From Roseinatronobacter sp. S2 (GTDB lineage Bacteria; Pseudomonadota; Alphaproteobacteria; Rhodobacterales; Rhodobacteraceae): a DNA stretch of 64,000 bases. Made by a program: the position numbers and the translations under genes. This document shows, in pieces, positions 17,956 to 36,852 of this stretch; position 1 is the first letter of the stretch; each line of letters begins with the position of its first letter. The notes beneath the pieces are model-generated. The model was not told where the DNA came from, made no database searches, and saw only the letters and a list, made by a program, of their open reading frames with translations. The DNA is taken from the NCBI RefSeq assembly GCF_029581395.1, contig NZ_CP121113.1, forward strand, positions 924,501 to 988,500. The letters run 5' to 3'.

Positions 17956-18030
17956 GGCCCGTTCGTCTATCGGTTAGGACGCCAGGTTTTCAACCTGGAA
18001 AGAGGGGTTCGATTCCCCTACGGGCTGCCA
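17956..18030 (+). tRNA. tRNA-Glu (anticodon UUC)
   Basis: 75 bases including an encoded CCA. Acceptor GGCCCGT pairs with ACGGGCT (first pair G-U), the D-arm contains GGTTAGGAC, the anticodon stem CCAGG/CCTGG encloses TTTTCAA (anticodon TTC at 17989-17991), and the T-arm is AGGGG-TTCGATT-CCCCT. Its 3' end forms one half of a 17-bp direct repeat with 36836-36852, so it is the integration target of the island that follows; the island restores an intact tRNA end here. Confidence 0.97.
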
Positions 18031-18031
18031 C
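18015..18031 (+). repeat. Left attachment site (attL) in tRNA-Glu
   Basis: The 17 bases CCCCTACGGGCTGCCAC (3' half of the T-stem, acceptor strand, CCA and one more base) recur perfectly at 36836-36852 in the same orientation. Together with the adjacent tyrosine integrase this is the classical att signature of tRNA-targeted islands. Confidence 0.9.
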
Positions 18032-18062: not shown

Positions 18063-19148
18063 TTATGGCTCTAATCTGCTAACCTTAGCAGTGTGGTTAG
18101 CAGAATTGGGATCATCTCTCGAGCTGACCAGTCTGGCCATGGCTTTTTGAGCCATCAGTTTCTGATCAGCAGCTTTCGTGTATCGCGTGACTTCTGCTTC
18201 GGTTTCATGGCCAGTGATGGCCTTGACTTCTTGGTTGCTACAGCCTGCTTCTGCCAAGCGCCTTGCACAAGCTTTTCGTAACCCGTGAGACGAGCATGCT
18301 GGAAGCCCCGCTGCGTCACACATCTTTCGCATCCAGTTACCAAACCCAGCCGGGGAGAAAGGCTTGCCATATTCGGTCAGCACGAATGTGAGGTTCGTTC
18401 GGGGGGTTTGAGCCAGCACAACCTCGAGATCGGGGTGGATCGGTATTTGAAGCGACGCGTGCGTCTTCTGCTGTCGGACGGAAATCAGTTTGCCCTTAAC
18501 ATGCTGCCACCCCATTCGGACAGCATCAGAGCGGCGTTGACCTGTGCAAAGCATAAGTGTCATGGCGAGACGCGCTTTGCTTTCGATCGGATGGTGTGCT
18601 TCGAACGCAGCGATTTCGTCTTCAGTCCAAGTATGATAGCCGTCTCCGTGGCTTTTGAACCCCTTTAACCCTGTCAGGGGGTTAGCCTCTATCAGCTCCA
18701 GTTCCAAAGCATAACCCATCAACACCTTCAGTCGTTTAAGTAGCGAGTTGGCAGCTTCTGGCCTATCTGCCATCTCTTCAAGGATACGCTTGGCATGCCT
18801 GCGCTTGAAGCCAGCAACTGGGTTGTCGCCATACGCTTCCCTGAATTTGTCGAACTGAGCGCGATACGTCCGGCGAGTAGACTCGGCGAGGTTCTTGTAG
18901 TTGGGCGACCTGTAGTATGCATCGACCAAAGCCGAGATTGTGTTACGGCTTACAAATGTCGGTTGAACCTCCAGCTGGGCTTCACCCCTTATCGCCTTGT
19001 TGTAGGCTGCCCAGAACGGCTTGCTTAGCAGCGGTCCGGGAAGCCGAGCATTTGGCAGGCCGGGCTTCTTGAGATATATCCGCTCCTTCCCGTGGCGGTC
19101 ACGATAGATATGGACAAAGGGCGGTCTTTCGTCATTTCGTCTGCGCAT
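18063..19148 (-). CDS. Tyrosine-type site-specific integrase of the island
   Basis: 361 residues. The SAM-like N-terminal core-binding domain is at about 70-170 (STRRTYRAQFDKFREAYGDNPV) and the catalytic domain at about 180-340. All catalytic residues are visible: Arg in CTGQRRSDAVRM, Lys in RQQKTHASL, His and Arg in SSHGLRKACARR, His in TGHETEAEV, and the nucleophile Tyr in TRYTKAADQK. Its 3' end faces the tRNA-Glu att site 32 bases away. The start overlaps the upstream 78-residue gene by 17 bases, so expression is coupled to the small operon behind it. Confidence 0.94.
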   Translation of the reverse strand: MRRRNDERPPFVHIYRDRHGKERIYLKKPGLPNARLPGPLLSKPFWAAYNKAIRGEAQLEVQPTFVSRNTISALVDAYYRSPNYKNLAESTRRTYRAQFDKFREAYGDNPVAGFKRRHAKRILEEMADRPEAANSLLKRLKVLMGYALELELIEANPLTGLKGFKSHGDGYHTWTEDEIAAFEAHHPIESKARLAMTLMLCTGQRRSDAVRMGWQHVKGKLISVRQQKTHASLQIPIHPDLEVVLAQTPRTNLTFVLTEYGKPFSPAGFGNWMRKMCDAAGLPACSSHGLRKACARRLAEAGCSNQEVKAITGHETEAEVTRYTKAADQKLMAQKAMARLVSSRDDPNSANHTAKVSRLEP

Positions 19149-19609: not shown

Positions 19610-19625
19610 ATAAGGGATAGAAAAT

Positions 19626-19910: not shown

Positions 19911-19992
19911 CCGTTATCCGCTGCCTGAGCATTATGTGAGCGCATCCAATGCGCGTGCAGCGCGTAGCGGCGCTGAATTCGTCAGGACGCGA

Positions 19993-20097: not shown

Positions 20098-20163
20098 TAT
20101 ATTCCTGAAGCAACACCCGACTCATCACGGTGAAGATATTCAAACGTTGGTCAAGATAGCCCT

Positions 20164-21186
20164 TCAGGGATTAGACAAGTCGGGAACGTATATCTGCTTT
20201 AGCGGAATCAGCGACCGATACCTCGGCGCGAGCATGGCATAGTTCTCTAGCAGCATCTCGACAAACTGTTCCCCGTCGATCAGGCGCAACTTGGCACGGT
20301 TCCGCTCCAACTCGACTGCCCCGCGTGCGTAGGAGCCGAGGTTGACGTATAGACCATACTCACCTTCGCCCAGCGTGCCGAGCAATTGGTCAACGTCCGG
20401 GCGCGGCGTCTGTTCGGTCCTGCGCTTGCATTGCACCTTCACGATAGGCGGCTGAAACCCCAGCGCATCCATATGCGCGATCACGTCAACGCCACCGTCA
20501 CCCGATTTCGTCGTCACCCGGGTCGTGTAGCCCATACATTCGAGGATATGGGCCACGAAGTGCTCGAACTCGTGCCCGGTCATCCCAGCCATGATTCTGC
20601 GGATAACGAAATCGCTTGTGGTTCCCTCGGCCTGTCTGGCCACGGCCTCGGTTGCCGTGTCGTCGTCGGCTGCGTCTTCCTGTGTCTCGGGTCTGGCCTC
20701 GATCTGGTTCAGGGCGGGGCCGAGGTTGACCTTTGCCAGGAACTCAGCGGCGTGCACCCGCACCCTGAATAGCGTGATGAACGAACCGATTTCGTTAAGC
20801 GCGCTTTGGGTGAAATCTGTTCGAGGGAAATGGCCCAGCCACTCGACCACACGTCGGTTGGGGTATTCGTCGGGGTCGTCGGGCACATGGGAAGCCTCGC
20901 CCGTAAAGCGACCGATATTTACCATGCGATCATGCTTCGACGGATAAACCACAATATCACCCGCCTGAATCTCGTGAACGAACCGGAATAGAAGCCCGGC
21001 ATATACCGGAACCGCACCTTCCTTCACATCGCGGATTGACTCACGCAGCGCCACCTTGAAGGCTTCGCGGTCGGCAGGGATCGTGCGCAGGTCGCCGAGC
21101 TCCCGCCAGCCAATAGCAACATAGCCGCCCTCGGTCGGTCGGTCGGAAACGTGCCCGCCCATATGGACGCCCCAGACTGTCGGCAT
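20164..21186 (-). CDS. Mrr-type restriction endonuclease
   Basis: 340 residues. The C-terminal domain (about 195-310) is an Mrr-like PD-(D/E)XK nuclease: GMTGHEFEHFVAHILECMGY, then SGDGGVDVIAH (Asp), IVKVQCKRR (Gln-x-Lys form of the motif) and GLYVNLGSYARGA. The N-terminal 170 residues (MPTVWGVHMGG...AGDIVVYPSKHDRMVNIGRF) are a PUA/EVE-like or DNA-reader type domain seen before Mrr nucleases. It would cleave modified or unmodified foreign DNA. It starts 3 bases after the methyltransferase gene ends, so the two form an operon. Confidence 0.85.
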   Translation of the reverse strand: MPTVWGVHMGGHVSDRPTEGGYVAIGWRELGDLRTIPADREAFKVALRESIRDVKEGAVPVYAGLLFRFVHEIQAGDIVVYPSKHDRMVNIGRFTGEASHVPDDPDEYPNRRVVEWLGHFPRTDFTQSALNEIGSFITLFRVRVHAAEFLAKVNLGPALNQIEARPETQEDAADDDTATEAVARQAEGTTSDFVIRRIMAGMTGHEFEHFVAHILECMGYTTRVTTKSGDGGVDVIAHMDALGFQPPIVKVQCKRRTEQTPRPDVDQLLGTLGEGEYGLYVNLGSYARGAVELERNRAKLRLIDGEQFVEMLLENYAMLAPRYRSLIPLKQIYVPDLSNP

Positions 21187-21189
21187 TGT

Positions 21190-24100
21190 TCAGTCCTCTT
21201 CCCCGTTATCGTCGTCATCGTCGCCAAACAGACCAAGTTGCTTGTCCGAGGTATCCGCCGAATGCTTCGGTGCCTTGCGTTCGGCCTCGGACGGGCTGGG
21301 CAACTCGGCGGCCGTGAAGCAGGGACCGGCCACAACCTTGTCGAGCGTCTTCTCAAGCTCCGGTTCCATTGCAAGGGTTGCGTCCAGAACCCACAGAAGT
21401 TCCAGAAGCTCATCGCTCATGCGGGCAGTCCAGCGTTCGGGGCGAATGTCATCAAGGGGCGAGGATTTCTTGCCCGCCCGCTTCTTCATCCGGTAGCCCA
21501 GCCATGACTGCACGACCTTGAGGCCAGACACCTCGAACTCCCAGACTTCCGGCGCAACGGGGCCGAAGCGGCCATCCCCCACGGTGATTTCGCGGGTGGC
21601 AGGGTCATAGGAATATGCCTCGGGATAGTTCGCCGGGTTGTCGGAAACGCCCTTGATGATCTTGGCCGCGCCGGGCGGGATTTCGTCACCGCGCCCTTCG
21701 CCTTGAAATCGCTCGGCATAAGTGTGCAGCCAGATCAGCTTGCGCCCCAGCGCTGCCGCCTCGGCAAAGGTCGCGCCATCCTTGGTCACGGGGACACGCG
21801 GGCCGGGCGTCTCAAGCTCGTTCCAGAAGCGTCGAGTATAGGACTGCCCGCCAAGAACGGCATAGACATAGGAGGCAAGGTCCTCTGCGTCCGGCGTGGT
21901 GCCGTATTCCGCGCCAAGGGCATCGAGCATTCCGGCTGTCACGTTCGGTTCCGTTCCGGCTTCGTCCCGATAAAGGGGGATTACGTCCTTGCCGCCGAAA
22001 GAACCCCGGAAATGGTGCAAGTCGGGAATTGCAGCACTCACACTCACGGCCTGTCCGAAACCAAGCGCGGTCGATAGCAGTGTCGAGAAATACACTTGTG
22101 TTGCACCGTTCATACGCCAAAGCGGGGGCCGCAAACGGTCGCCCAAGCGGAAATCATACAGTGCGAAATGCCTATCAAACGAACGATAAGAAAACGGGAT
22201 TGCCTGTGGCCGCGCCGAACTCTCAGTCAGCGAAATAATCGGCGGCTGGCCTTCTCCCGGTAAGTCGTCGCGCACTGTTTTCGTTATCTTCCACCCGCCT
22301 GTTTCACGAAACAACTTCTTACGCTCTGGCACCTTAGATTTCACCAAGCGATCCCACCGAGCATTTAGAACAGCAACAGTTTCTCCAATTGGCCAGTGCC
22401 TCTTAAATTGGGCTCCATTCAAGCTAACTGGGAAAATATCGACAATCTCTGGCCAAGCCGAATAATCGCCCTTTCCAATTGGCAGGAACGGCTTATGCCA
22501 GTCATCGGGGCAATCTCGCCAGACTAGCCCGCCAAAATCCGCAACGACTTCGAGTTGCGTCAACTTGCTTTCGCGGTCTGTTCCTTCGATCTTCGCATAT
22601 CTAACCTTCGCGGGTTTGTCGGGCGACGGTTTCGCCGCCCGAACTCCGATAGCAATGGCCACCGGGGTCTGAATGCTAAACACGTTCGGCGTTTTTCGAG
22701 TGCCGAGATTGTCGCCGCCAAGGTCGATTATCCAAAGCTCGTCGAAGGTGCGCCGCATCACCTCTCGCACGCCGATAAAGCCCGGCCCCGCCAGATAGCT
22801 CGATGCAGTGATGAACGTAACAACCCCGCCGCAGTTCTGTTGCTCGAACAATCGCCACAGCGCCCAGCGCCAGAAATAAACGTAGTCGTTATAGAGGTTC
22901 TTGAGGTGAACGCCCGCACCCGCGTTCGAGGCTGGTTCCGTGAAATCTCTGAAGATTGGGCGTTCGGTCCTGTCGCCGCCTTCAACAACGGCCGTTGCAA
23001 TATCCATTTTGCCTTGGCCTTTATCACCAAAGCGCACCCAACCGCCCTTGCGCTGCGTGTCCGTGTCGCCCTCCTCGATGGTCTGGCGATCATAGGGAGG
23101 GTTACCCAGACACACGAGAATATCGCCGCCCTGCTTCACCTTGCGGGCGGCCTCGTGCTCTTGCGTCAAGGCTTTATGTGTGAGGTCCAGTCCACCCGGC
23201 GGGGCTTTGTTCGGGCTTGATAGTGTGTCTGCCAAATAGATATTCAATCGCTTGGCAAGCTTTTCCTCGGGTTCACCGGCCGCCGCCTTGGCATCGTTCA
23301 TCGCCCCTTCAAGCGCCTGTGTCAGCCGCAGATGCGCAACGGCATAGGGGCCAACCAGCACCTCGAACCCATGCATGTTCTCGGCCATCTGGCGGGCTCG
23401 GGCAGGCACCGCGCCGGGGCCAGATCGCGCGCGCACCTTTTCCAACCCGTGCTTCACTGCCGCAACGGGATAGGTGCCGGTGCCCACCGCCGGATCAAGG
23501 AACACCACGCCATCATCGGCAAAGCCCAGCTTTTTGCTGAACCGCTTTTCCAGCAGTTCCGAGGCAAGGCGCACCTGCAATTCAACCACCTCACGCGGGG
23601 TATAGTAGACGCCATAATCCTTGCGCAGCTTGGGGTCATATGCGGCAAGGAAGTCCTCATAGAAATACAGCCACAGGTCGGGCTTCGATTTCAGGAAGTC
23701 GTGGGGGTCCAGTGCTTCGAGGGATCGGCGCAACATCTCGAACCCGACCGCCAGTTCATCGCGCGCGGCCTTCTGGCCCAGCAGTTCGAGGGTCCGGGCC
23801 AGCAGGCCGTTGTTCTTGTCGAGGGTCTTCGCGGCCTCGGTCGGGTCGAGCTTGGCCGCACCGGAGAGGCGCGCCAGCAACATCGCATATGTCACCGTCT
23901 GGGCGTAGGCATCTGCGAATTTGGCATCATCGGAATCGGGGAAGAAAAATTGCCGCCATTCACCTGCGAGAAGCCCAACGGCGGAGCCGGGCTGGGCCAG
24001 CGCGGTTTCAACCTCAGACCGCAGGAATCGGCAGAGAGGGGCGAGATAAACCGCGAGCGGTGTCGGCTGATGCGGCACGTTCGGCTGCCAGCCTAGAAAG

Positions 24101-24579
24101 TCGCGGAACAGCCGCTCAAGCGCCTCGGCATCGTCGTTGGTGGTCGCAGCCTTGCCTTTTTCGGTCGGGTCGTCGTGCATGCGAACAATCGGCTGGCCAT
24201 CCGGCCGTTCGCCACCACGATAGAGCGCCCATTCCCGCCCGTCTGAGTAGATCAGATTCGGTAGTCCCTTGAGCTTTTCCCATTGCTTCTTGTTATGCTC
24301 GCCCCTGAGTTTTGGCGCATCGGCACCGAGGCCCGGTGCCTTCAACTCGATATAGCCGCAGATCAGACCGCCGACATAAATTGCGATGTCGGGCCGGACC
24401 TTGTGTTCCGACAAATGCGTTTCGGTGCGGGTTTCAATGGTCAGGCCGTAGGTGTCCCCTGCAAACTTGAACAGGTCAGCGACCAGCGGTTTCAGTTGGT
24501 CTTCTGGTGAGGCCGCGCCGGGAAGTGAAAATTTTGCCTTGAGGGCCTCTGAAAATTCTTCGAGGTCGGATAGCTTCAT
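21190..24579 (-). CDS. Type ISP-like restriction-modification enzyme: nuclease plus N6-adenine methyltransferase
   Basis: 1129 residues. N-terminus: PD-(D/E)XK-type segment RPDIAIYVGGLICGYIELKAPG with Asp64, Glu78 and Lys80. Middle: helical region then an N6 methyltransferase with motif I DPAVGTGTY at about 362-370 and motif IV NPPY at 493-496. C-terminus: long target-recognition region like the LlaBIII/LlaGI specificity domain (FDRHFALYDFRLGDRLRPPLWRM, WNELETPGPRVPVTKD). There is no SF2 helicase between nuclease and methylase, unlike classical type ISP enzymes, so it resembles a type IIG layout. It probably modifies host DNA and cuts unmodified DNA. Confidence 0.87.
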   Translation of the reverse strand: MKLSDLEEFSEALKAKFSLPGAASPEDQLKPLVADLFKFAGDTYGLTIETRTETHLSEHKVRPDIAIYVGGLICGYIELKAPGLGADAPKLRGEHNKKQWEKLKGLPNLIYSDGREWALYRGGERPDGQPIVRMHDDPTEKGKAATTNDDAEALERLFRDFLGWQPNVPHQPTPLAVYLAPLCRFLRSEVETALAQPGSAVGLLAGEWRQFFFPDSDDAKFADAYAQTVTYAMLLARLSGAAKLDPTEAAKTLDKNNGLLARTLELLGQKAARDELAVGFEMLRRSLEALDPHDFLKSKPDLWLYFYEDFLAAYDPKLRKDYGVYYTPREVVELQVRLASELLEKRFSKKLGFADDGVVFLDPAVGTGTYPVAAVKHGLEKVRARSGPGAVPARARQMAENMHGFEVLVGPYAVAHLRLTQALEGAMNDAKAAAGEPEEKLAKRLNIYLADTLSSPNKAPPGGLDLTHKALTQEHEAARKVKQGGDILVCLGNPPYDRQTIEEGDTDTQRKGGWVRFGDKGQGKMDIATAVVEGGDRTERPIFRDFTEPASNAGAGVHLKNLYNDYVYFWRWALWRLFEQQNCGGVVTFITASSYLAGPGFIGVREVMRRTFDELWIIDLGGDNLGTRKTPNVFSIQTPVAIAIGVRAAKPSPDKPAKVRYAKIEGTDRESKLTQLEVVADFGGLVWRDCPDDWHKPFLPIGKGDYSAWPEIVDIFPVSLNGAQFKRHWPIGETVAVLNARWDRLVKSKVPERKKLFRETGGWKITKTVRDDLPGEGQPPIISLTESSARPQAIPFSYRSFDRHFALYDFRLGDRLRPPLWRMNGATQVYFSTLLSTALGFGQAVSVSAAIPDLHHFRGSFGGKDVIPLYRDEAGTEPNVTAGMLDALGAEYGTTPDAEDLASYVYAVLGGQSYTRRFWNELETPGPRVPVTKDGATFAEAAALGRKLIWLHTYAERFQGEGRGDEIPPGAAKIIKGVSDNPANYPEAYSYDPATREITVGDGRFGPVAPEVWEFEVSGLKVVQSWLGYRMKKRAGKKSSPLDDIRPERWTARMSDELLELLWVLDATLAMEPELEKTLDKVVAGPCFTAAELPSPSEAERKAPKHSADTSDKQLGLFGDDDDDNGEED

Positions 24580-24759
24580 TCAATCGCCCACTTCAACTTG
24601 AAATCGCATCTCGGTCTTTCTCGCTACCCACCTTGAGAACCGAGGGATGCCTCAGGACAACGCACAGGACGCTTCCTGAAGCGGTCGAGGATGACTTAAG
24701 CACTGCGAAGCCCCTCACGTCAAACACTTACGGACTCAGTGCGGCGTGATGCAACCCAA

Positions 24760-24993
24760 TCACAGACGCTCTGTCAGGTTTTGATCACGGGTATTGGGGG
24801 CGGACAGACGGACAACCTTCGGCATTTTGAACCGGTTGATCACTTCCTTCATCGCGCCAAGCCCGGAAAGGTACGCCCGATCCGACTTGGCAGGATACCC
24901 GCAGAGATACTTGGCGCTGGGTTGCCGTAAACCCGGTTCTATTGCTTGCGCAATTGATTGCGGAAAGTGAGCATGCTGAAAAACCTGCCACAC
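24760..24993 (-). CDS. Short open frame of unknown nature
   Basis: 77-codon frame (GTG start) in the 465-base gap between the methyltransferase and the 471-residue gene. The translation (IEPGLRQPSAKYLCGYPAKSDRAYLSGLGAMKEVINRF) looks protein-like in its second half but matches no family I know. It overlaps the repeat at 24946-24961. It could be a remnant of a lost gene. The rest of the gap holds nothing I can identify. Confidence 0.25.
   Translation of the reverse strand: MWQVFQHAHFPQSIAQAIEPGLRQPSAKYLCGYPAKSDRAYLSGLGAMKEVINRFKMPKVVRLSAPNTRDQNLTERL
24946..24961 (+). repeat. Left copy of 16-bp direct repeat TTGCGCAATTGATTGC
   Basis: Identical to 33777-33792, same orientation, 8.8 kb apart. 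The interval contains the NERD-kinase-helicase operon, the second tyrosine recombinase and the DUF488 gene. The core GCAATTGATTGC is a near-palindrome and belongs to a family of similar sites elsewhere in the island. Confidence 0.65.
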
Positions 24994-25044
24994 GAGCCGA
25001 TTGTGACCCGTGATAATGGGGTGTTATCGGATGCAAGAACGCGG

Positions 25045-26460
25045 CTAGCGGTCGTAGCGTTGAAGAAAGTAACCATACGCCCGGTCGACAACTAGCGGGT
25101 CAAAAGAGGCCAGTCCCAGCGGCACTGGATTTCCCGTGGATGCACCAAGCGGCGCGTGAACGATCGCCGCCACCATAACATCAGGAACCAGCAGGAGCTC
25201 TAAAGATTTGGGAAAGTCCCCGACACGGACCTCCTGAATTTCATCAAACGTCTTTTCAGTGTACTTTGCAGGCCGGCCCCATGCATACAAACATAAAGAT
25301 TTCATTTCAGACTTTTCCCCAGGCAAAGTGCGTGCTGTAGTTTCCTGTATCAAAGTCAGAAGGTCCCGCTGCTGGGTCGTTGCGCCCCATCCTTGAGTTT
25401 GGGGGGCTACCGCGTATATATTCTCGGGTGCCTCAGTTACGTTACGCAGGCCGTAAGCCAGTACCGCCTGTACACGCTCGATATTGCCAGGCAAGAGTAA
25501 CGAGCCAACGATAGGAATAGTTTTTCTATCGCTTCTCGGTTCACCAGCGCGACTTACTGCTTCCCTCCAGTAACGGACTACTGAAAGACCATTTCGCGTC
25601 GCAAACTCCTTGAGAAACTCTGGTGCCAGGTCGATTAGAGTTTGATAAGCAGAGGCAGCATCGAGCTGAGCGGTTGAAGTCTGCTGATCCTTCACAAACA
25701 GAGCTACCGCGCGCTCAATCTCGGGTCGGTCAGCGATCTCGTGATCCATCCGCCATGCTGACAAATCAATTTCAGCTGCACTGGGATTGGATGCTTGAGC
25801 AAATGTGACGACTCGAAGAGGCATCTGAAACCTTGTGCCCGGGGTGACTAATGGATCAATCGAATAGATATCACGGCGCTCGGTCTTGCCACGATCCGCC
25901 TGATCTGCGAGTTCTCTGAAAAATTGTTTAAAACGAGCGGGCACACGCTCCGCGACTCGGCCTGTCTCGGCGGGGTCCTCGGAAGGAAGTTCGGGCAAAA
26001 CTCGCTCAAGCTCATCTAGAGTGCTTCTGATCTGAGGGGCTATCGACATGAGATCGAAGCCAAATGAACGTCGACGCGCTTCAACGGTGTAGATCGATGG
26101 TTGTTCATCGTCTTCTTGAAAGAGACTTTCACCTGAAATCGTCAGCCACAGCTTCCCGGCTCTCCGCTCCAAATAACCAGGAGCAATAGCCTCCTCCAGA
26201 ACATATTCGATGTCGGTCGGGCTGTAGCCAAAAAATATAGCCGCATCTTCTTCGTCAATTCCAGGGGCCGCTTTGACAAGGCGGAGCAAAAATTCGAGCG
26301 TTGGACTTACCTGCCCCAATGATGCCACCTTGTAATTCACTTCAAAAAACCGGCAAGGCAACAAAACATCGAATATATCGAGTTCTACACGCCGGTCTTC
26401 CTCCAGTGGCACAAGCTCATGCCCTCTTAATCGCAAGAGTGGTCTATTAAGCTTTGCCAT
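25045..26460 (-). CDS. Unrecognised partner protein of the NERD-kinase-helicase
   Basis: 471 residues, soluble, no signal peptide. Residues about 50-115 look like a winged helix (TLEFLLRLVKAAPGIDEEDAAIFFGYSPTDIEYVLEEAIAPGYLERRAGKLWLTISG). The middle is helical and acidic; the C-terminal half has mixed alpha/beta structure with no catalytic motif I recognise. The start overlaps the upstream gene's end by 14 bases, so the two are translationally coupled and very likely act together. It could be a DNA-recognition or regulatory subunit; that is inference from the wHTH-like segment and position. Confidence 0.8.
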   Translation of the reverse strand: MAKLNRPLLRLRGHELVPLEEDRRVELDIFDVLLPCRFFEVNYKVASLGQVSPTLEFLLRLVKAAPGIDEEDAAIFFGYSPTDIEYVLEEAIAPGYLERRAGKLWLTISGESLFQEDDEQPSIYTVEARRRSFGFDLMSIAPQIRSTLDELERVLPELPSEDPAETGRVAERVPARFKQFFRELADQADRGKTERRDIYSIDPLVTPGTRFQMPLRVVTFAQASNPSAAEIDLSAWRMDHEIADRPEIERAVALFVKDQQTSTAQLDAASAYQTLIDLAPEFLKEFATRNGLSVVRYWREAVSRAGEPRSDRKTIPIVGSLLLPGNIERVQAVLAYGLRNVTEAPENIYAVAPQTQGWGATTQQRDLLTLIQETTARTLPGEKSEMKSLCLYAWGRPAKYTEKTFDEIQEVRVGDFPKSLELLLVPDVMVAAIVHAPLGASTGNPVPLGLASFDPLVVDRAYGYFLQRYDR

Positions 26461-29400
26461 ATTCTTCTTGCCTCTCTATTGAGTCATCCCGAGATGAACC
26501 TTCGCATTTCAGCCCTTCTTGAATTCCTAACAAATCTTCCACGGCGATAGCCGAGGCGACGCCGTCATCGATCCGTCTTTCAAAGCCTGCCGACAGTCGA
26601 CCCATTGGAGAGTTAGGTCTCCACCGATTGCGTGACCCGACAATTACAAGCCTGTCCATCGCGCGACTGACAGCGACGTTGATCCGGTTGGGTGTAACAA
26701 GAAAGCCGTCTTTAATGGTCTTGCTGCCTGCCTCGACAGGTCCATACTGGTTGTTTCTAACGAGCGACAAGATCACTATTGGGTTCTCCTTCCCTTGATA
26801 GCTGTCTACTGTGCCAACCTTTACGTTCCGCTCCAAAAGAGTAGCCAGTGAGGACTGCCTTAGTTTTCGTTCAATCAAATTGCGCTGTGCTGCGTACATG
26901 CAGATCACTCCGATACCTATCGGATGACTTTGCTGCGTAAGCAGCCAATCGCGAAACTTGTCATCCGCATACCACCGGTCGAGGAGACGGATGATCGCGT
27001 CTGCTTCCGCAGGATTACTCTTACTTTTGGCGTCATTGCGCTCGTAACCCGCCTGCCCAAGGCCATCGGTCTCCACCCATGTCAGTGGATATTTCAGGTC
27101 GCTAGGGAACACGTGGGGATCAACAACAGGGTCCCGGCGCCCGGCAAGGAGCGTGAGGTCTGGGTAAAATGTTTCAGATACGAGTTGGCCTATGGGAGAA
27201 AGCATCCGATACTGTGTTTTCAGCTGCGAGCCAGCAGCGCGGCCATAGTTCGTCATAAAAATGCGTTCAAAATCGCTTCGCTTGATTTCCTTCTTGGCAA
27301 TCGAGGTCCGCTCTGCAACGAGGTTGACGATTTCAGGCTTATGCTGAGGTTGCAACTGTGCGTGGTCGCCGACAAGGACAGCCCAACGAGCAGCCTGAAG
27401 CGGGACGAGCAATTCGCCGGAAGTGCAACGGGCGGCCTCGTCAATAATCACCAAATCGAAAGCCGTAGCCGTGAGACCGAGCGATGATCTGCCAAGTCCA
27501 ACGCATGTTCCAGCAACAATCTGGCGAGTGCCCGCGAGGAAGGTATCGAAGCTGCGCTCAGCTCGGGAAACACTGCCGATAAAATCGCGACCCAATCCTG
27601 CTATGGACCTCAGTCGTTCAATTCTATCTGCGCCAACTCCGTACTGCCGCGCTGCGCGTCGCGCGATTGCGGCAGCGATCTCGTCAAGAACACAATTCCA
27701 ATCTTCTTCGAAGCTGGAATCAGGAAGCGGGATCTCGACATCGAGCACGCTCAAATGCTCCTGCAGTGTATCAACAAGGCTGTTTATTCGCTTAATCTGC
27801 GTTTCAGAATCACGGGCTAGCTCGCAAATCCTATTAACGACCGGTCTTACCGTTGTTTCTAGAAAAACGACTTGCGAGATAATTTCGTGTGGAAGCCCTA
27901 ATACCTTACCGACCACAGCCATACGTTCGCCGAACGTGGCGCTAAACTGATCTTTATAGGACTGCTCGACCCGGGACGTATGATAGGGGCGCAGTGGTGG
28001 TGATACCTGTGCGCCATCCATCCCCACACGCAATAGGCTGGGCAACTCACCGGTCTTACGGAAAAGCGTGAGAACCGCTTCGGCGGCATTGTTTACCGCC
28101 TCATGCGATTGACTAGAAAGAAGAACGTTCCGTACAAGTCCGTTGGTAATTGTGTAGTGTGCAAGAGCTGCAATGAACTTCGTTTTTCCCGTACCAGGCG
28201 GCCCTTGGAGCAACCCCACCGGACGCGAGTTTATGATGTTTCGAAAGGCTTGTGTTTGGTCATCGTTGAGCCCGTAGAGTTCTAACGATTCTTCGCTCGC
28301 GTGATGGTCGGTTATTTCGGGGGATGCGTTGGAGCGGGAATCGAAAACTGACATGAGGTCATTCGCGCGTCCGTTGCCAGCCAGAATTCGATCGACTGCG
28401 TCGCTACGGCGTTTGAGGCTGGTACCCTCGAAGTGGCTGAGAAAACGTAGCCGCTGTCCTGCTTCAACAAGTCTTGAACTCAAAGACCAACCGCCCTGTG
28501 CATCGATTACAGCAAGATCCGGCTTGGAGTGATTTATATCAAGGTCACCAATGCGCCGCCAGTTTCCTTTCTTGTCCTGCTTCTGAACAGCCACAGTATC
28601 ATTTCGAGAAAAACCAAACTCGCCGCTTTCCAACTCAATGACGACCTTGTGGCGTTTAATTCCGCGATCATAATCGCTGTCAAGCTGCACAACAGCTTCG
28701 GTCGTGAGCTCGTTCTCAACCTCCATAAGAACGCGCCATAACTCCGGTACGTCTATATCGGTTGACAGCGCGTCGCTTTCGGCAATCTCTTCGGCGAGTG
28801 CGTCTTCCGCCTCGTCTTCCAGCGGGACGGCATCGGCGCTTTCAGGCGTTTCAGAGATCGCTGGCAACGCGTCTCCCGAGACTTCTTTGGCTATTTTTTC
28901 TTTGACCACAGGATCGTTTAAGATTGGCTCAAGCTCCGACAAGTCTGTAACGTCAGAGCGCGTGACAGTCAGAGTGGCACTTAAACGGTAAAACTCCTGT
29001 TTTGCCGCAAGGGTCAGAAGCCACTGTTCAAGCTTTCGCCGTTTTGCGCCTATTGCTCGACCATCTTCGTCAAGGCGCACTTCGAGTTCCTCAAATGCGC
29101 CGCGAATGTGAAGCGATAGGTGGTGATAGTGCGGATGACGCCGAACACGAACAAAAAAGAAACCTTCATCGGAAGCGACTGGACCTGTCTGTTGACCTAC
29201 TAACGAAACAGAGATTGATTTCTTTTCCTCTGTTTTCTTCGGCTCTGTCGACTGAAGGCGCGCGATAGTCGACATCAGTGCCTCCTGTAACGGTAGGAGG
29301 GTCGTGAGAACAGGTGGCTTCTCACGGCATTCTCGAATTGCCGACGCAATTATCGTTGCATCTGGAGGAGCAAGATCAGATGCTGTGAGAATTTCCTCGG

Positions 29401-31450
29401 TAATTTTGGTGAGTGCGAAGCGATCTCGCTCCATACGATTCCCACTATCAGGCGCATACTCTGAACTTACGATTTCACCATCGGCACGCGGCGAATAGTC
29501 AAGCACATCAATGAGTAGGGTTTGACCTTCAGAGTCAACAACTATATTGGCTGGCTTCAAATCACCATGCCCTATGCCCTGCTCGTGAAGGCTATCTACT
29601 ATCGTGACGAGATTACTACACAGTTCCAGGGCGTCCGTAGCGACCTTATATTCATTATTATCGCGAATAATGACATCGAGTGGAACGCCTTCGATCCAGG
29701 CCTGAACAAGGACAATGCTATCACCCAGCCAGTGCGCGCCACGAACCGGCGCAACTCCCAATGGCTTGTCAGCCTTCATGTTGGCAGCACGACGTAAGAA
29801 GGAAAGAATGCTGCCCCCCTCTTTCTTCAGGTCCCCCCATGCTGGCTGTTTCCACTGCTTGACCAAGACCGGAACACCGCCGTCTATACTGCGCCATACA
29901 TCCACCCGATCACTTTCAACGATCATTTCCCCATCAACAGGAAATATAGTGAATAACTGTCTTTGTGACCGTATGGTCTCTCTGAACGATTCAAGTTTCG
30001 AAATTATTTCATCCGATGTTGGCCTCGAAGCAGTTGCTCTATTGTAAGACTCAAGAGCGATAGTCGCGTCCGCAAATCTTTGCTCAGGGATAATTTCCAA
30101 AGCCTCCGCAAACCAGTCATGCAAAACGGAATAATCATTGGCTGCATCAATTTCAGCGTCCCATTCCGCCGGTTCACCCGTTGGTGATTGTCCAAAAAGT
30201 AGCGTGTGTACCGCAACCCCGAGCAGAAAAACATCTCGCCGCTTCGGGCCGCCATCTACTTCCAGCACGTCTTCGGGCACCGTTACCCCAGATAGGAATT
30301 GGTAACGTGAAGTACCGAGAGATTTTCCTTCCGGAAAGCGCGATGCCAGTAGATGAGATAGCCTGACGGACGTTGGAAGTTCTAGCCATATGCTGTGTCC
30401 ACCAAGGTCGAGGTGTGATGCATTCTGGCGATGCAGCGCCGCAACAGCAGATATTACCTGCCGCGCCAATTCTATCTTCTGATTGGGAAGAATAGTAGAA
30501 GCTTCACTGATAGCAAACTCATTGAGGCGTCGCATACGACGGCGGCGATCGTAAATCTCCCAATAATTGACACTACGGTCTGGATCATCCAGTCGCGGAG
30601 TCAGAAGTGTTCGCTCTAGTTCCTGATCCCGGTCACGGAGCCAATGGTATACCTGCTGCTCACGCCCGGCGATCTCCAGTCGCCCCTCTTCGGTCTGGAA
30701 GCGGCCATCCTTACACTTGGTGAAGTCCCATAACCTCAAGATTCCTAGGCTGTTCTTATTGCCCTCTTCGGTCGCTTCATATTCTCGATAAACGTCACTC
30801 GGATGAGCGTAACTAGATATATCCTCTGCAAGATACCTTTGGAAACGACGCCGTCCTGGCTTAAAGGGCGAATTCGGGCCGACATTAAAAAAGCGGCTTA
30901 GTTTATCCTTCCAAAAACCGTCTGTGAGAGGTCGGTGTAAGAATTTAGCGAGCGGTTCGCCGAATGTCTCGTTCAGTTCTCGTGTATTTCCGGCCAACTT
31001 GATGAAGTCAGCGGCGGAGAGAACTTTACGCTTTTCCAAACCATCAAGATTAGCATTTGTTGCCGAGCCTGTAAGGACAACGAGACTGGCGATAAACGGG
31101 ACGGGCTCTTGGCGGGTCTCGGGCCGACTTTTTAGCTGGTTTCTTAGGGGTGTCAAAACCTCCCGGCCAATATCCCCAATCTTCTGTACAGGGGAGGGGC
31201 CGTAATCTCTGCCATTGTTGAACCAGCGACCCTCTCTATTCTCGAGGTTTCCGTTCCAGTCCTTTATATCGACAAAGAAAATACGGTGATCCGATACAAT
31301 GATGAGGTCAATTTCACGCGATTTTCCTAGACCGAGCGCGAGATCAAGATTTGTGAAGGCATACCAGTTTGACGGCAGCTCTTTTTTCAGTAGCTCAAGG
31401 CCCTTGACCTCACGTGCATGAACACCGCGGCCGCAGTTTGTGACCTGCAT
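26447..31450 (-). CDS. NERD nuclease-like / tandem kinase-like / SF1 helicase giant protein
   Basis: 1667 residues. NERD domain at about 15-150 (KSREIDLIIVSDHRIFFVDIKDWNG, with Glu46, Asp48, Asp61 and Lys63). First kinase-like domain at about 300-470 with a degenerate loop HLDLGGHSIWL (Asp348 kept, Lys and Asn lost), probably a pseudokinase. Second kinase domain at about 500-720 with candidate Lys531, HGDLKPANI (628-636) and LIDVLDY in place of DFG. Acidic linker at about 860-900. Upf1/Dna2-type SF1 helicase: GPPGTGKT 1083-1090, DEAA 1337-1340, GDHAQLQP, TQYRM, GTVDSYQGKE, VAVSRA. It recalls PglW (NERD-kinase) of Pgl/BREX-2 fused to a helicase. Likely antiphage; the exact system is not known to me. 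Confidence 0.9.
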   Translation of the reverse strand: MQVTNCGRGVHAREVKGLELLKKELPSNWYAFTNLDLALGLGKSREIDLIIVSDHRIFFVDIKDWNGNLENREGRWFNNGRDYGPSPVQKIGDIGREVLTPLRNQLKSRPETRQEPVPFIASLVVLTGSATNANLDGLEKRKVLSAADFIKLAGNTRELNETFGEPLAKFLHRPLTDGFWKDKLSRFFNVGPNSPFKPGRRRFQRYLAEDISSYAHPSDVYREYEATEEGNKNSLGILRLWDFTKCKDGRFQTEEGRLEIAGREQQVYHWLRDRDQELERTLLTPRLDDPDRSVNYWEIYDRRRRMRRLNEFAISEASTILPNQKIELARQVISAVAALHRQNASHLDLGGHSIWLELPTSVRLSHLLASRFPEGKSLGTSRYQFLSGVTVPEDVLEVDGGPKRRDVFLLGVAVHTLLFGQSPTGEPAEWDAEIDAANDYSVLHDWFAEALEIIPEQRFADATIALESYNRATASRPTSDEIISKLESFRETIRSQRQLFTIFPVDGEMIVESDRVDVWRSIDGGVPVLVKQWKQPAWGDLKKEGGSILSFLRRAANMKADKPLGVAPVRGAHWLGDSIVLVQAWIEGVPLDVIIRDNNEYKVATDALELCSNLVTIVDSLHEQGIGHGDLKPANIVVDSEGQTLLIDVLDYSPRADGEIVSSEYAPDSGNRMERDRFALTKITEEILTASDLAPPDATIIASAIRECREKPPVLTTLLPLQEALMSTIARLQSTEPKKTEEKKSISVSLVGQQTGPVASDEGFFFVRVRRHPHYHHLSLHIRGAFEELEVRLDEDGRAIGAKRRKLEQWLLTLAAKQEFYRLSATLTVTRSDVTDLSELEPILNDPVVKEKIAKEVSGDALPAISETPESADAVPLEDEAEDALAEEIAESDALSTDIDVPELWRVLMEVENELTTEAVVQLDSDYDRGIKRHKVVIELESGEFGFSRNDTVAVQKQDKKGNWRRIGDLDINHSKPDLAVIDAQGGWSLSSRLVEAGQRLRFLSHFEGTSLKRRSDAVDRILAGNGRANDLMSVFDSRSNASPEITDHHASEESLELYGLNDDQTQAFRNIINSRPVGLLQGPPGTGKTKFIAALAHYTITNGLVRNVLLSSQSHEAVNNAAEAVLTLFRKTGELPSLLRVGMDGAQVSPPLRPYHTSRVEQSYKDQFSATFGERMAVVGKVLGLPHEIISQVVFLETTVRPVVNRICELARDSETQIKRINSLVDTLQEHLSVLDVEIPLPDSSFEEDWNCVLDEIAAAIARRAARQYGVGADRIERLRSIAGLGRDFIGSVSRAERSFDTFLAGTRQIVAGTCVGLGRSSLGLTATAFDLVIIDEAARCTSGELLVPLQAARWAVLVGDHAQLQPQHKPEIVNLVAERTSIAKKEIKRSDFERIFMTNYGRAAGSQLKTQYRMLSPIGQLVSETFYPDLTLLAGRRDPVVDPHVFPSDLKYPLTWVETDGLGQAGYERNDAKSKSNPAEADAIIRLLDRWYADDKFRDWLLTQQSHPIGIGVICMYAAQRNLIERKLRQSSLATLLERNVKVGTVDSYQGKENPIVILSLVRNNQYGPVEAGSKTIKDGFLVTPNRINVAVSRAMDRLVIVGSRNRWRPNSPMGRLSAGFERRIDDGVASAIAVEDLLGIQEGLKCEGSSRDDSIERQEEYGKA

Positions 31451-31658
31451 ATCCCCCCCTTGATTAAGCTAAGGTTCAAGAGTAGCGGGTTTTTTTTGAT
31501 TTCGGAAGCGCTTTTACGAACCTACTTGGGGGTGGGCAGCGGTGCGGCATTTTCGAAACCAAGACTTAACGATACTACGGTTAGATGAACGCCCTCGACA
31601 GCCGGTGCCACCTCAATACGCATCGCCTTTGGGCCGCAAGTAACCGAGCGATTCGGGC

Positions 31659-32642
31659 TTACAGTATCGCTCCTGCCGCGTTCCCGGTGAACATGTCCCC
31701 ATCGCGTACATACCGGGCCAACATCGCGTCTGAGGCATGGCCTGTCTGAGCTCGGATTTTCAGAGTTGATACACCCGCCTGCGCCGCACTGGTCGCAAAA
31801 CCTGCCCGCAGGCTATGACCGGAATAGCCTTCAGGTTCGATCCCTGCTGCTGCCAGTCGCTCGCGGATCACAACAGACACGGCCTCCCCCGTCAGCGCAC
31901 TTGTCGCAACATGACCATGACGGTTGACCGGGCGGAACAGCGGGCCTTGTTCAATTCCTGCGATTGCACGCCATGCTTCCAGCGCACCCACTGGGCAATG
32001 GCGGGTCCTACCATGGGGAATGCCCAGTCGCCGCCCTGCACCCTCCTGATCGGTTTTACTGCGCCGGATGGTCACGATCAGCCCTTGGCGCGCGGCCTCA
32101 ACATCAGCGCAATTCAACCCGACCAGCTCGGAACGGCGAAAGCCCCCGGCAAAACCAAGCAGGAGCAGCGCCCGGTCGCGATGATCGCGGATCGTGCTGC
32201 CCAAACTGTCGAGGACCAACAGTAGGTCATCCCGCAAGAGGGGTTTGGCCTGCCGCTGAGCCGTGCCATGTGCGCGCCGCAAGCCGCGTAGTGTGGCTTT
32301 CACGATTTCGGCCCGGCAGGGGTTCGGCATACCTGCCATTTCATGGGCTTTGGAGATCGAGGCAATCCGGCGCTGGATGGTCGCAACGGCATGTTGCCCC
32401 GCGTGATCGCCAATGTATGCGCAGATCATATGCGGGCTGGCTGGAATGGTGCCGCCCCATTCATGGAACTGGGCAAGATCGCTGCGAAGGGCGCGTTCGC
32501 TGGCGGGGGCAACGCTGCGTCGTAACAGGTCCGCCACTTGATCGGAAAGTCCACCCTCTGCTGTAGGACCAGTCTGGAATGTTCCGCAGTTAATTGCATT
32601 TTGATCCTTCCCATCACCATCGGCATGACCGGAAAATGGCAT
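31659..32642 (-). CDS. Second tyrosine recombinase of the island
   Basis: About 327 residues from ATG 32642. N-terminal core-binding domain (PASERALRSDLAQFHEWGGTIPASPHMICAYI) and catalytic domain with all key residues: Arg in GGFRRSELVGL, Lys in IRRSKTDQEG, His and Arg in SGHSLRAGFAT, His in TGHASDAML, Tyr in ARYVRDGDMF. An upstream ATG at 32873 overlaps the DUF488 stop as ATGA and would give 404 residues, but the extra N-terminus is low-quality and encodes two of the GCAATTAATTGC-type sites, so I prefer the internal start. It may act on those sites. Confidence 0.82.
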   Translation of the reverse strand: MPFSGHADGDGKDQNAINCGTFQTGPTAEGGLSDQVADLLRRSVAPASERALRSDLAQFHEWGGTIPASPHMICAYIGDHAGQHAVATIQRRIASISKAHEMAGMPNPCRAEIVKATLRGLRRAHGTAQRQAKPLLRDDLLLVLDSLGSTIRDHRDRALLLLGFAGGFRRSELVGLNCADVEAARQGLIVTIRRSKTDQEGAGRRLGIPHGRTRHCPVGALEAWRAIAGIEQGPLFRPVNRHGHVATSALTGEAVSVVIRERLAAAGIEPEGYSGHSLRAGFATSAAQAGVSTLKIRAQTGHASDAMLARYVRDGDMFTGNAAGAIL

Positions 32643-32679
32643 CATCGACCGATTTCCGCTCCAGCAATTAATTGCAATT
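32582..32679 (+). repeat. Two GCARTTAATTGC sites near the recombinase start
   Basis: TTCCGCAGTTAATTGCA at 32582-32598 recurs exactly at 34991-35007. GCAATTAATTGC, a perfect palindrome, lies at 32664-32675. Both are in or just upstream of the second recombinase gene. They fit the same pattern as 24946-24961, 33777-33792 and 37779-37787. Tyrosine recombinases act on short inverted repeats, so these may be its core or accessory sites; that is inferred. Confidence 0.5.
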
Positions 32680-32869
32680 CCTTGAGCTGCTAAAGCCGAT
32701 TGATCCGCCGCGTTGGAAAGCTGTAGACGGGCTGTCTGGTCCGCGTGAGGGATTGGTGGGCCGAGGCGTGGGACGGCGCTGAGGGACTCTGGTATCACGC
32801 GGAAATGGCGCGTGCAGACATGTGATTGGGCCGGGATCATCTGGCGCTGCTTATGGTGTCGTGTGAAGC

Positions 32870-33427
32870 TCATGGCCGCAGCCCCATTCTGACCAGCTTC
32901 GCCGCATATGCCTTGTCGAGGCGTTCGGCCCTGTCACTGAACAAATCGGCAGCCAGCCTCATGCGCTGTAACAGACGATCTTCTGTCTGGGCGTGTGGCT
33001 CAACCGATCCGCTCCGCAAGATATGCGCGATCTCGACATCGTGGCGGTCGACCAGATAGCGGGATATGATGAAGAAGCGATGGCAGTCCAGAACTTCCCC
33101 TTCTGCGCAAAGTAATGCTGGACGGCAGCGCGTGGCAATGTCCATGACCTGTTCGATCCCGTCCAGAAACCGGGGCAGTGTGCAGCGCCGCGCATAGCTG
33201 GCTTCTTCATCCGTGACGTGCCCACCGAGCTGCGTGCCAAGATGCAGATAGCCGATGCCGCGCTTGTTCAGCCCAGCCTTGAGCGGGGCTTGATTGAAGA
33301 ACGGTTGGCGGGATCGCGGGAATGACCGAACGTCGATCAGGCAGCCGATCTCGCACTGCTGAATGCGTTGGGTGAACTCTGCCCATGATAGGGTTGATGA
33401 CCCCAGCGTCAAAATTGTATTTGGCAT
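32870..33427 (-). CDS. DUF488 family protein
   Basis: 185 residues. DUF488 marks are TLGSSTLSWAEFTQRI at the start, LIDVRSFPRSRQPFFN, RGIGYLHLGTQLGG, and the Cys-containing LLCAEGEVLDCHRFFIISRYL near the end. Biochemical function of the family is not established; it often sits beside DNA-modification or defence genes. ATG 33427 follows TTATGGAGAAATC with a good ribosome site. Its stop overlaps an in-frame ATG of the recombinase as ATGA. Confidence 0.8.
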   Translation of the reverse strand: MPNTILTLGSSTLSWAEFTQRIQQCEIGCLIDVRSFPRSRQPFFNQAPLKAGLNKRGIGYLHLGTQLGGHVTDEEASYARRCTLPRFLDGIEQVMDIATRCRPALLCAEGEVLDCHRFFIISRYLVDRHDVEIAHILRSGSVEPHAQTEDRLLQRMRLAADLFSDRAERLDKAYAAKLVRMGLRP

Positions 33428-33732
33428 GATTTCTCCATAAGTTACTGTAAAAACAATAACTTTTAGAGACTCGGTGGTACATGCTGGAACCCTGCGAAAA
33501 TCATGTTTACCGGAGCAATGGCGTCCAATAGCGCAAGACAAAGTGCGTTCACGCGGCCTCTCGACGCTCTCAACCCGTTGATTTTGAGTCGAATGTACTC
33601 AGCCGCTCCCACAGGTTGGCACACAGGGGATATTCGGCCATTTGGGCCATTGCAGGTCAGCGGCGGGCCACCTCTGGTAAGACCCCTGACCTGCCATGGA
33701 ACACTGACCGCTCTGCATGGGGCTTGAGCACG

Positions 33733-33879
33733 CCGGGTGCGCAACCTTTGGGCGGGTCATCTGGCTCCAACTACTTTTGCGCAATTGATTGCAATTATTG
33801 GATAGCTGTCTCCAGAATTTTTCTTGTGCGGCGTGTTCTATTCGCTGACAAATTGCTCTCATCGCTGGCAGGCATCGTG
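33733..33879 (+). repeat. 147-bp module, copy A
   Basis: Aligns with 34946-35093 over its whole length with a single one-base gap, about two thirds identical by eye. Shared blocks: GCAACCTT-GG-CGGGT, TGGCTCCA, the GCAATTRATTGCAA core (here including the right copy of the 16-bp repeat, 33777-33792), then CTAT-C and ATTGCTCT followed by GGCAT-GTG. The two copies flank the GIY-YIG gene. On the minus strand the outer part can be read as a conserved peptide end (CLPAMRAICQRIEHA). The rest of 33428-34081 shows no gene I can support. Confidence 0.55.
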
Positions 33880-34081
33880 GTGGCTGATCACAATTTCCAT
33901 GCTGTGGCATCGGTCAGTTTGAGTTCTGCCAGCACATTCGACCAGCCAGACCAGATCAATTCAGGCATCCACCGAGGGCACAGGTTGCAGTCGTGGCGAT
34001 TTTGAAATCAGTAATGTCGGCCACACAGAGCAGATCGCGTCCGATTGACGCGTGGCTTCGTGGGTTGCTGCTTACTCGACT

Positions 34082-34903
34082 TCAGGTTTCGGGTAGATAA
34101 CGCAGTGACTGCTGTCTGCCGAGCGTGGACAAGATAACGGTTCCGGTCTCTGAATTGTCATCATGCAGAGATCGCCTTTCCCACTTGATTGCAAGTTCTG
34201 GGGCAGGTTCCCCCTCAAAACGGCACCGGCGTTTCTTGTGCTTTTCGCGTGTCGCTTCGTTCGTTATCCTGAAAATTGCATTGCCTTCTGAGTCCTTCTT
34301 CGTCCTGAAAAAAGACACCATCAGGCCCTGATGCAAGCCGATGATCAGGTCAACTCGTTTCGCTGCGACCGGGGCAATGGTCCAGTCACCCAAAGTTTGC
34401 TCTGCGAGTGAAGCAGGATCAGCTTTGGCGTCAGGGTAAGAATTATTCATGCCAACCAGCAAGACTGTGCCGGGGATTTCACTCCGCATGACAGGTTGGC
34501 CATGCTGTTCTTCCAGTTCGTTCACATTGCGCCAGTATTGATTTGAGTTGTGCCCGGAATGCTTGTTGCTCAGGTTCAGTACGCTGATCAGGATCGTCTC
34601 CAGCGCAAAGGCGCGGGCATCATCCAAGCCGTATGCTACCACTTTGATTTCCGGCTTTTGCCCAAGCTGCAAGATTTCCTTGATCGTGTCTGACTTGAGG
34701 TCTGCACCCCGCTCAGACAACGAAAAGACACCAGATTTCGCCACAAGCGCAGCATGGTGAAAGCAACGCTGCCCTGTGCCTTTACCAATGTAAAAAATGC
34801 CACCCTGCGGATCGTCCTGTCGCCTTGGATCGATAAGGGCGTAAACATACTGCCCAAGCTGGCTCATGGTCTGAATTGAAAATCCTGAAATCTGATCCGT
34901 CAT
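34082..34903 (-). CDS. GIY-YIG (LEM-3-like) nuclease-domain protein
   Basis: 273 residues. GIY-YIG core: QYVYALIDPRRQDDPQGGIFYIGKGTGQRCFHHA gives the paired Y-x-Y and YIGKG strands plus Arg and His; the metal-binding Glu is likely in AFALETILI. The remainder (EQHGQPVMR..., LVGMNNSYPDAKADPASLAEQTLGDW) resembles bacterial LEM-3-like GIY-YIG proteins of unknown role. ATG 34903 is chosen because of the ribosome site AAAGGTAGGA just upstream; the long frame from 35125 would run through repeat copy B. It stands alone between two repeat modules like a cassette. Confidence 0.75.
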   Translation of the reverse strand: MTDQISGFSIQTMSQLGQYVYALIDPRRQDDPQGGIFYIGKGTGQRCFHHAALVAKSGVFSLSERGADLKSDTIKEILQLGQKPEIKVVAYGLDDARAFALETILISVLNLSNKHSGHNSNQYWRNVNELEEQHGQPVMRSEIPGTVLLVGMNNSYPDAKADPASLAEQTLGDWTIAPVAAKRVDLIIGLHQGLMVSFFRTKKDSEGNAIFRITNEATREKHKKRRCRFEGEPAPELAIKWERRSLHDDNSETGTVILSTLGRQQSLRYLPET

Positions 34904-34945
34904 GTAAATCCTACCTTTCCCCTTTGGCACCTGACCACGCCTGTT

Positions 34946-35093
34946 CCGGGCTTGCAACCTTCGGACGGGTAGGTTGGCTCCACGGTGCGCTTCCGCAGTT
35001 AATTGCAAACATGAGACAGCAGCCCTTCTGATCGCTCTTACTTGGCTTGCTCTATCCAGTGGTAGATTGCTCTTGTTGAGGGCGGGCATTGTG
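34946..35093 (+). repeat. 148-bp module, copy B
   Basis: Partner of 33733-33879. Contains TTCCGCAGTTAATTGCAA at the position where copy A has TTGCGCAATTGATTGCAA. On the minus strand the outer part reads CPPSTRAIYHWIEQAK then stop, similar to copy A's CLPAMRAICQRIEHA, so the copies may descend from the end of a coding region. The remaining bases of 34904-35374 hold no recognisable gene. Confidence 0.55.
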
Positions 35094-35374
35094 CCGACTG
35101 GTTGGCAGACACGGTGACAGAGCAACGGATCATCGACCCATGATTTACGTCGTTGGCTCTAGTTATTTGCAGTACGCTGGGATCGGATTGGAGGTAGTGG
35201 TGCCCGCAGAATGCCCTGAGAGGCAATATGCGGGCCAGTGAGTGCCCAAGTTCCGCTTTGATGGGGAATTTGGGTGTGGCTCGGGGTTCGATGGCGCTGA
35301 GAGCGCGGAAATTCAGTTCCCGAAATTAGGTCACCCCACTCCCTGTATTGTCAGTGGCAAAAGTTTTTTCAGGC

Positions 35375-36835: not shown

Positions 36836-36852
36836 CCCCTACGGGCTGCCAC
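36836..36852 (+). repeat. Right attachment site (attR)
   Basis: CCCCTACGGGCTGCCAC, identical to 18015-18031 in tRNA-Glu. The base on each side differs, so the identity is exactly 17 bp. The rest of a tRNA is absent here, as expected for the displaced copy created by integration. Confidence 0.9.

Follow-up and report, generated by a model that had tools for sequence, protein, structure and literature searches.

A gene pair matching the long, NERD-bearing form of Mokosh type I in Roseinatronobacter sp. S2, and its predicted active sites compared with those of the short form

A two-gene operon in a 64,000-nucleotide stretch of Roseinatronobacter sp. S2 (contig NZ_CP121113.1, positions 924,501 to 988,500; hereafter the window) is, judged from its sequence, almost certainly a Mokosh type I defence system of the long, NERD-bearing form. 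Both genes match the corresponding PADLOC 2.0.0 profiles over nearly their full length: MkoA scores 1670 bits against PDLC03921 (residues 1-1640, profile positions 1-1603 of 1607) and MkoB scores 348.6 bits against PDLC03923 (residues 20-467), and the MkoB gene directly adjoins that of MkoA, as the type I model specifies. The original prediction, made from the DNA letters alone, held that no characterised system has this two-gene make-up. That novelty did not survive the PADLOC comparison, which gave a named match (1670 bits for MkoA and, rounded, 349 bits for MkoB); an unknown system was rejected on this ground, and because a named model fits both genes the system itself is ordinary. Taken by itself, the find adds a further copy of a defence system already known. 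Its main value lies in the comparison that it allows, in which two forms under one name appear to keep opposite active sites, with the HKD motif present and NERD absent in the short form versus NERD present and the HKD motif lost in the long form.

The discovery paper for Mokosh is said to be Millman et al. 2022. Type I, as summarized in PMC11672841, has separate genes for a COG1112-type RNA helicase and for a PLD nuclease, together with a Ser/Thr kinase domain, and type II is a fusion. A NERD domain is tabulated for type I in PMC10952713. The passage on Mokosh in an Asgard defence survey cites the system as degrading viral transcripts (PMC11291487), and its mechanism is stated as unknown where PMC12926258 refers to it; two further papers on defence systems are PMC12278908 and PMC10013915. 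The window pair has the helicase and kinase parts of the summary in PMC11672841 (an Upf1-like helicase and a Pkinase domain, both in MkoA) and the NERD domain of the table in PMC10952713 (PF08378, 50.6 bits), but not the separate PLD nuclease: a PLD fold is predicted in MkoB, and a complete HKD motif (HxKx4D) is found anywhere in the protein in 0 of 139 long-form sequences. Because the PLD domain of MkoB is without a complete HKD, we filed the pair under the PADLOC long form and not under the PLD-armed definition.

The start codon of mkoB lies within the 3' end of mkoA, and the open reading frames (ORFs), both on the minus strand, confirm the 14-base overlap that had been noted between the 1667-residue frame and the 471-residue gene (Table 1). 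Against a homologue of equal length on an Aminobacter plasmid, mkoA differs 815 times at the third codon position versus 223 and 152 times at the other two. This excess indicates that the frame is no chance occurrence and that its protein is under selection.

The large frame had been read as a NERD domain, two kinase loops and an Upf1-type helicase, and matches in Pfam and the PDB bear this out, with the order NERD, pseudokinase, kinase and Upf1-like superfamily 1 (SF1) helicase. Active sites were compared in an alignment of 136 MkoA proteins, which combines 117 of the best 120 of 336 homologues (the window protein included; three shorter than 1590 residues were dropped) with 19 proteins from individual loci, some of which may duplicate listed homologues, as the MkoB of locus L033 does. 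For MkoB, the best 120 of 187 homologues were used. The two pairs of the NERD site, acidic-x-D and acidic-x-K, are present in 136/136 MkoA (117/117 homologues and 19/19 locus proteins), a pattern that we take to resemble a PD-(D/E)xK site. The first kinase has a weak B-raf-like match (residues 324-436, E about 0.006) and in the window carries R239 at the VAIK Lys site, HLD348, S353 at the Asn site and H366 at the DFG Asp site. Across the alignment, the ATP-binding Lys site holds Arg and the DFG-site Asp is missing in every protein, the catalytic Asn site is Ser in 131 (Asn in 2, Thr, Cys and Ala in 1 each), and the Asp of HxD is kept in all 136. By these residues, long-form MkoA has a conserved pseudokinase as its first kinase domain. 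In the second kinase, Lys531, Asp630 (HGD), Asn635 and Asp648 are each retained in 136/136. That one kinase loop is degenerate and the other intact, as first noticed in the window protein, is real and holds for the whole family (136/136). The helicase, for which the closest solved relatives in the PDB are NAM7/Upf1, Dna2 and SMUBP-2, keeps its Walker A Lys and Walker B Glu in all 136 as well.

For MkoB, the VIA list of the whole protein was filled by the winged helix-turn-helix (wHTH), so the C-terminal part was folded separately. The motif set comprises the 139 sequences given above, of which P0111 and P0117 are without the C-terminal site, leaving 137 that reach His435. This His is present in 132 of the 137, and a Lys stands at the HKD site in 1 of 136, in a sequence without the His. 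The Lys-bearing exception is the MkoB of L156 (Polaromonas sp. JS666 plasmid 1), which has the Lys and the Asp, with Gln for His. Two HxKx4E strings occur (P0037 and L155), both distant from the aligned site. No Pfam PLD family was matched in 23 long-form MkoB proteins at E up to 0.1 or in 35 at E up to 0.5, and a search of the viral structure library gave no match at E 0.001 or better. In the textbook picture of Mokosh, MkoB would be a PLD nuclease and NERD a scaffold, as might be expected from the predicted PLD fold of residues 310-471, from the widely kept His435 and from the summary of type I in PMC11672841 as helicase, PLD nuclease and kinase. With no complete HxKx4D in the set, a site Lys in one sequence that is without the His and no Pfam PLD match in any of the scanned proteins, we regard this picture as very improbable for the long form.

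The short form differs at each of these sites. We compared 11 short-form loci, 2 from genomes and 9 of the 47 plasmid records with short-form MkoB; their MkoA, of 1095-1199 residues (as annotated or as ORF), was matched to PDLC03920 in 2 of 11 only. None of the 11 has the NERD motif within the first 200 residues, and the Pfam NERD family was not among the 25 of 26 families listed for short-form MkoA and was absent in two proteins scanned singly. There is a single kinase, which has lost both the HRD and the DFG Asp in 11/11. Conversely, short-form MkoB (572-639 residues) has two HKD-type motifs in 11/11, and 20 of these 22 motifs match HxKx4D in full, whereas L161 and L188 each have one that does not. 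PLDc_2 and PDLC03922 both match 11/11, and a wHTH-like match stands at the start of the protein for MarR_2 in 4/11 and for TrmB in 4/11. As a separate observation, the dead kinase of short-form MkoA (L161, L162, L187-L194 and L197) contrasts with the Ser/Thr kinase in the summary of PMC11672841.

The two forms are nevertheless related through their helicase. After a motif filter, the helicase tree contained 15/16 long forms, 11/11 short forms and 30/73 other SF1 helicases; the long forms group as one clade with support 1.0 and the short forms as another with 0.97, and long forms, short forms and one outside sequence together form a clade (0.95) among the 30 others. An SF1 helicase on a Candidatus Poseidoniales archaeon contig (L076) falls inside this joint clade and is a possible archaeal relative. 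Our own profile comparisons of long and short MkoB were not significant, and homology of the two is supported over the first ~230 residues only, via the PADLOC profile. As read from these motifs and trees, the two forms share a motor and carry complementary predicted active sites, and the nuclease site seems to have moved between subunits, from the PLD domain of MkoB in the short form to the NERD domain of MkoA in the long form. That the long form is also a mechanistically separate subtype, in which MkoA gained the PglW/DndF cassette and the PLD domain of MkoB, with the loss of its active site, turned into a TrmB-like binding domain, we consider about as probable as not.

Overall, the explanation that we favour, and hold to be somewhat probable, is a long-form Mokosh anti-phage system in which MkoB would be the sensor and MkoA the motor and weapon. 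With its MarR-like winged helix and a PLD fold that has no catalytic motif, MkoB would serve as a nucleic-acid-binding sensor or adaptor; the Upf1-like helicase of MkoA would run on the invading nucleic acid, the pseudokinase and kinase would act as a switch that might gate the nuclease or helicase, and the NERD domain would cut. In short-form Mokosh the HKD-bearing PLD domain of MkoB presumably cuts, and the long form would have had its nuclease replaced and relocated to the other subunit. The sequences themselves show the pairing of the genes, their matches to profiles, the kept motifs and, by prediction, the folds. Binding, phosphorylation, cleavage and the anti-phage effect are what we infer from the domains, and to the proposed mechanism taken alone we give an even chance. 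The kinase could instead be the main effector, phosphorylating cell or phage proteins and halting growth, with NERD as a back-up nuclease. The catalytic residues of the second kinase are invariant (136/136), and PMC12839542, where it treats PglW, proposes a near-equivalent for that protein, with self-targeting of DNA through NERD or of proteins through the kinases. However, the NERD site is equally invariant, and because the short-form kinase is dead in 11/11 while MkoB keeps its HKD motifs, the kinase is not the general Mokosh effector. We consider a kinase effector possible but unlikely.

The favoured system of two cooperating subunits is consistent with how regularly the genes occur together. 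Such pairing had been suggested from the window alone and is found in 17/17 intact loci located via MkoA, where a gene of 454-523 residues comes next at -32 to +2 bases; the two loci located via MkoB (L163 and L185) both have an intact MkoA directly upstream. The downstream gene is MkoB by hidden Markov model (HMM) in 17 of these 19 loci (E 2.4e-19 or better); of the remaining two, L185 was itself found via MkoB and L186 lies outside the HMM test. The pairs of Aminobacter, Rhizobium leguminosarum and Rhizobium sp. BK313 overlap by 14 bases too. The plasmid loci are 11 of the 168 records with an MkoA match, picked for diversity, and L039 (cut by a contig end) and L196 (no annotation) were left out of the locus set. 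Broken MkoA occurs in L153 and L195. In L153 (Sphingomonas), excluded from the 19, the annotation splits MkoA into three pieces and MkoB into two. In L195 (Magnetospirillum sp. XM-1 plasmid II, 5319-8467), a locus located via MkoB, MkoB lies beside a 539-residue AAA-domain gene at the place of MkoA, a decayed or changed locus. In L159 (Pseudomonas amygdali megaplasmid), a separate small nuclease-related-domain gene (5259-5876) lies just upstream of a NERD-bearing long MkoA.

Long-form Mokosh is patchily distributed. MkoA was matched at E 1e-30 in 168/72,556 plasmid records, of which 69 cover at least 80% of the query, and in 4 records of the phage collection, of which 3 reach 80%. MkoB was found in 2/295 genomes of the window's family, its own genome included, and the second genome also has the complete pair. 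A close-relative scan of genome contigs with a single protein found no relative, and an alignment scan gave 80 loci, 7 of which (L033-L039) match well past the helicase and 73 in the C-terminal half only. The PADLOC MkoA family was found in 153/385 class genomes and 13/14 controls, from generic kinase and helicase matches; among the matches listed, a full-length match in the 385 class genomes occurs in the window's own genome only. The MkoB profile matches 17 of the 385, strongly in the own genome only and at ~20 bits over the wHTH in the others. In one of these three, Pseudomonas phage vB_PaeS-D14H (L186, 2204-8711), a long-form MkoA and then a 518-residue gene adjoin the phage integrase. On Polaromonas sp. 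JS666 plasmid 1 (L156, 6001-12415), a complete long-form pair is flanked by pglX and pglZ/brxL of a BREX-1 operon that encloses it.

Upf1/Dna2-type helicases also serve repair and RNA decay, and the helicase core of MkoA is of this type, so the pair might be an accessory DNA-repair or RNA-processing module and not a defence system. Its presence in 2/295 family genomes, on plasmids (the 69 records at 80% or more of the query) and in a phage record, its position inside the Polaromonas BREX operon and the restriction genes that adjoin the window pair all speak against such a role, which we think highly unlikely; a housekeeping helicase was considered and rejected.

The N-terminal part of MkoA has counterparts in other defence systems. 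PMC12839542, a BREX survey in whose main text the word 'Mokosh' is absent, describes the order NERD, pseudokinase, active kinase for BREX type 2 PglW and for a subset of DndF proteins. According to the same description, the cassette is followed in PglW by wHTH modules and a STAND domain that is inactive, and PglW works as part of the BREX-2 gene set. A likeness to PglW had been proposed for the window protein, and a PglW profile indeed matches MkoA residues 4-438 with 88 bits; the NCBIfam PglW profile matches residues 11-437, below its cut-off. L166 and L167, putative PglW proteins by length and architecture, match the window MkoA weakly at NERD, the first and the second kinase, in the same order, and L168 matches it at NERD and the second kinase. 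The cassette of BREX type 2 is thus present in MkoA by profile match and motifs, and on that basis long-form Mokosh joins the systems that share this cassette. The same matches would fit a part of a BREX-2-like system with MkoA as a PglW relative. Yet the MkoA profile scores far higher (1670 bits), PglX, PglZ and BrxC have no strong match among the 18 window proteins scanned with PADLOC, and the SF1 helicase half lies outside PglW as described in PMC12839542. We regard a BREX-2-like system as most improbable, and a BREX-2 fragment was likewise considered and rejected. NCBIfam MAD6 matches MkoA residues 3-481 with 133.8 bits versus an equivalog cut-off of 460, which leaves MkoA outside MADS; hints of mad3 and mad8 at 42132-44108 proved to be an ordinary oligopeptide ABC transporter.

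The pair had also been placed among defence genes, and its neighbours do include a type IIG enzyme, an Mrr nuclease and two other genes with PADLOC matches. We propose that positions 18032-36852 are a ~18.8-kb tRNA-Glu island that carries the Mokosh pair. Within it lie two tyrosine recombinases and five loci matched by PADLOC (Mrr/PDC-S02, type IIG, Mokosh, DUF488/PDC-M45B and GIY-YIG/PD-T4-3). The window and a same-genus genome (G755) agree at 100% identity from 17800 to 18031 and diverge beyond, the left flank is found in 10/12 same-genus genomes, and G+C is 0.549 inside versus 0.601 and 0.591 outside. The right end of the proposed island rests on the 17-bp repeat, because the empty-site test did not find the right flank beside the tRNA in relatives.

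Table 1. Mokosh gene pair, its predicted domains and features of the proposed island (window positions)
Feature	Position	Strand	Evidence
mkoA, long form, 1667 aa	26447..31450	-	ORF; PADLOC MkoA match; third-position substitution excess
mkoB, long form, 471 aa	25045..26460	-	ORF; PADLOC MkoB match
NERD, MkoA residues 14-102, E46-x-D48 + D61-x-K63	31145..31411	-	Pfam PF08378 50.6 bits
First kinase, predicted pseudokinase, MkoA residues ~216-440 (boundaries estimated)	30131..30805	-	B-raf-like match, PglW profile
Second kinase, MkoA residues ~509-740 (boundaries approximate)	29231..29926	-	Pfam Pkinase, best stretch 577-648
Upf1/Dna2-like SF1 helicase core, MkoA residues 1061-1607	26630..28270	-	Pfam AAA_11 + AAA_12
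MarR-like winged helix-turn-helix, MkoB residues ~49-120	26101..26316	-	
PLD-fold domain without complete HKD, MkoB residues 310-471	25048..25533	-	Predicted fold
tRNA-Glu (ttc), proposed island insertion site	17956..18030	+	ARAGORN
Left 17-bp direct repeat (tRNA 3' end + one base)	18015..18031	+	Exact repeat
Right 17-bp direct repeat, proposed far island end	36836..36852	+	Exact copy, E 4e-4 in window
Tyrosine integrase adjoining tRNA	18063..19148	-	Pfam Phage_integrase 72 bits
Mrr-type restriction nuclease	20164..21186	-	Pfam Mrr_cat 89 bits; PADLOC PDC-S02 440 bits
Type IIG restriction-modification enzyme	21190..24579	-	PADLOC REase_MTase_IIG 1115 bits
Second tyrosine recombinase, directly upstream of mkoA	31659..32873	-	Pfam Phage_integrase 49 bits
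DUF488 protein, candidate defence gene	32870..33541	-	Pfam DUF488 57 bits; PADLOC PDC-M45B 140 bits
GIY-YIG nuclease-like protein	34082..35125	-	Pfam LEM-3_GIY-YIG 33 bits; PADLOC PD-T4-3 62 bits

If the proposed change of subunit is true, a kinase-controlled, helicase-driven NERD nuclease replaces a PLD nuclease within one system family. Statements that Mokosh is a PLD system may fail for one of the two pairs of PADLOC profiles compared here. The comparison predicts the weapon residue in each form and opens the role of the invariant pseudokinase to testing. A literature search on Mokosh with NERD, pseudokinase or PLD did not find the swap described in the parts of the papers that it covered; Millman et al. 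2022, which lay outside that search, may say more.

Among known systems, the MADS kinase MAD6 shares the NERD and kinase region with MkoA, and its profile of 612 positions is too short for the helicase half; PglW of BREX type 2 shares the cassette and has no SF1 helicase. The archaeal regulators TrmB and TrmBL2 resemble long-form MkoB in fold only, kinship in sequence or operon not being established. From the long form of Mokosh type I (PDLC03921/PDLC03923), no difference was found, given the near-full-length match of both genes and their adjacency. With the short form (PDLC03920/PDLC03922) the window pair shares the two-gene operon and a related SF1 helicase, the two being sister clades, but the short form has no NERD, one pseudokinase and an MkoB with two HKD-type motifs, whereas the window form carries NERD and a pseudokinase followed by an intact kinase.

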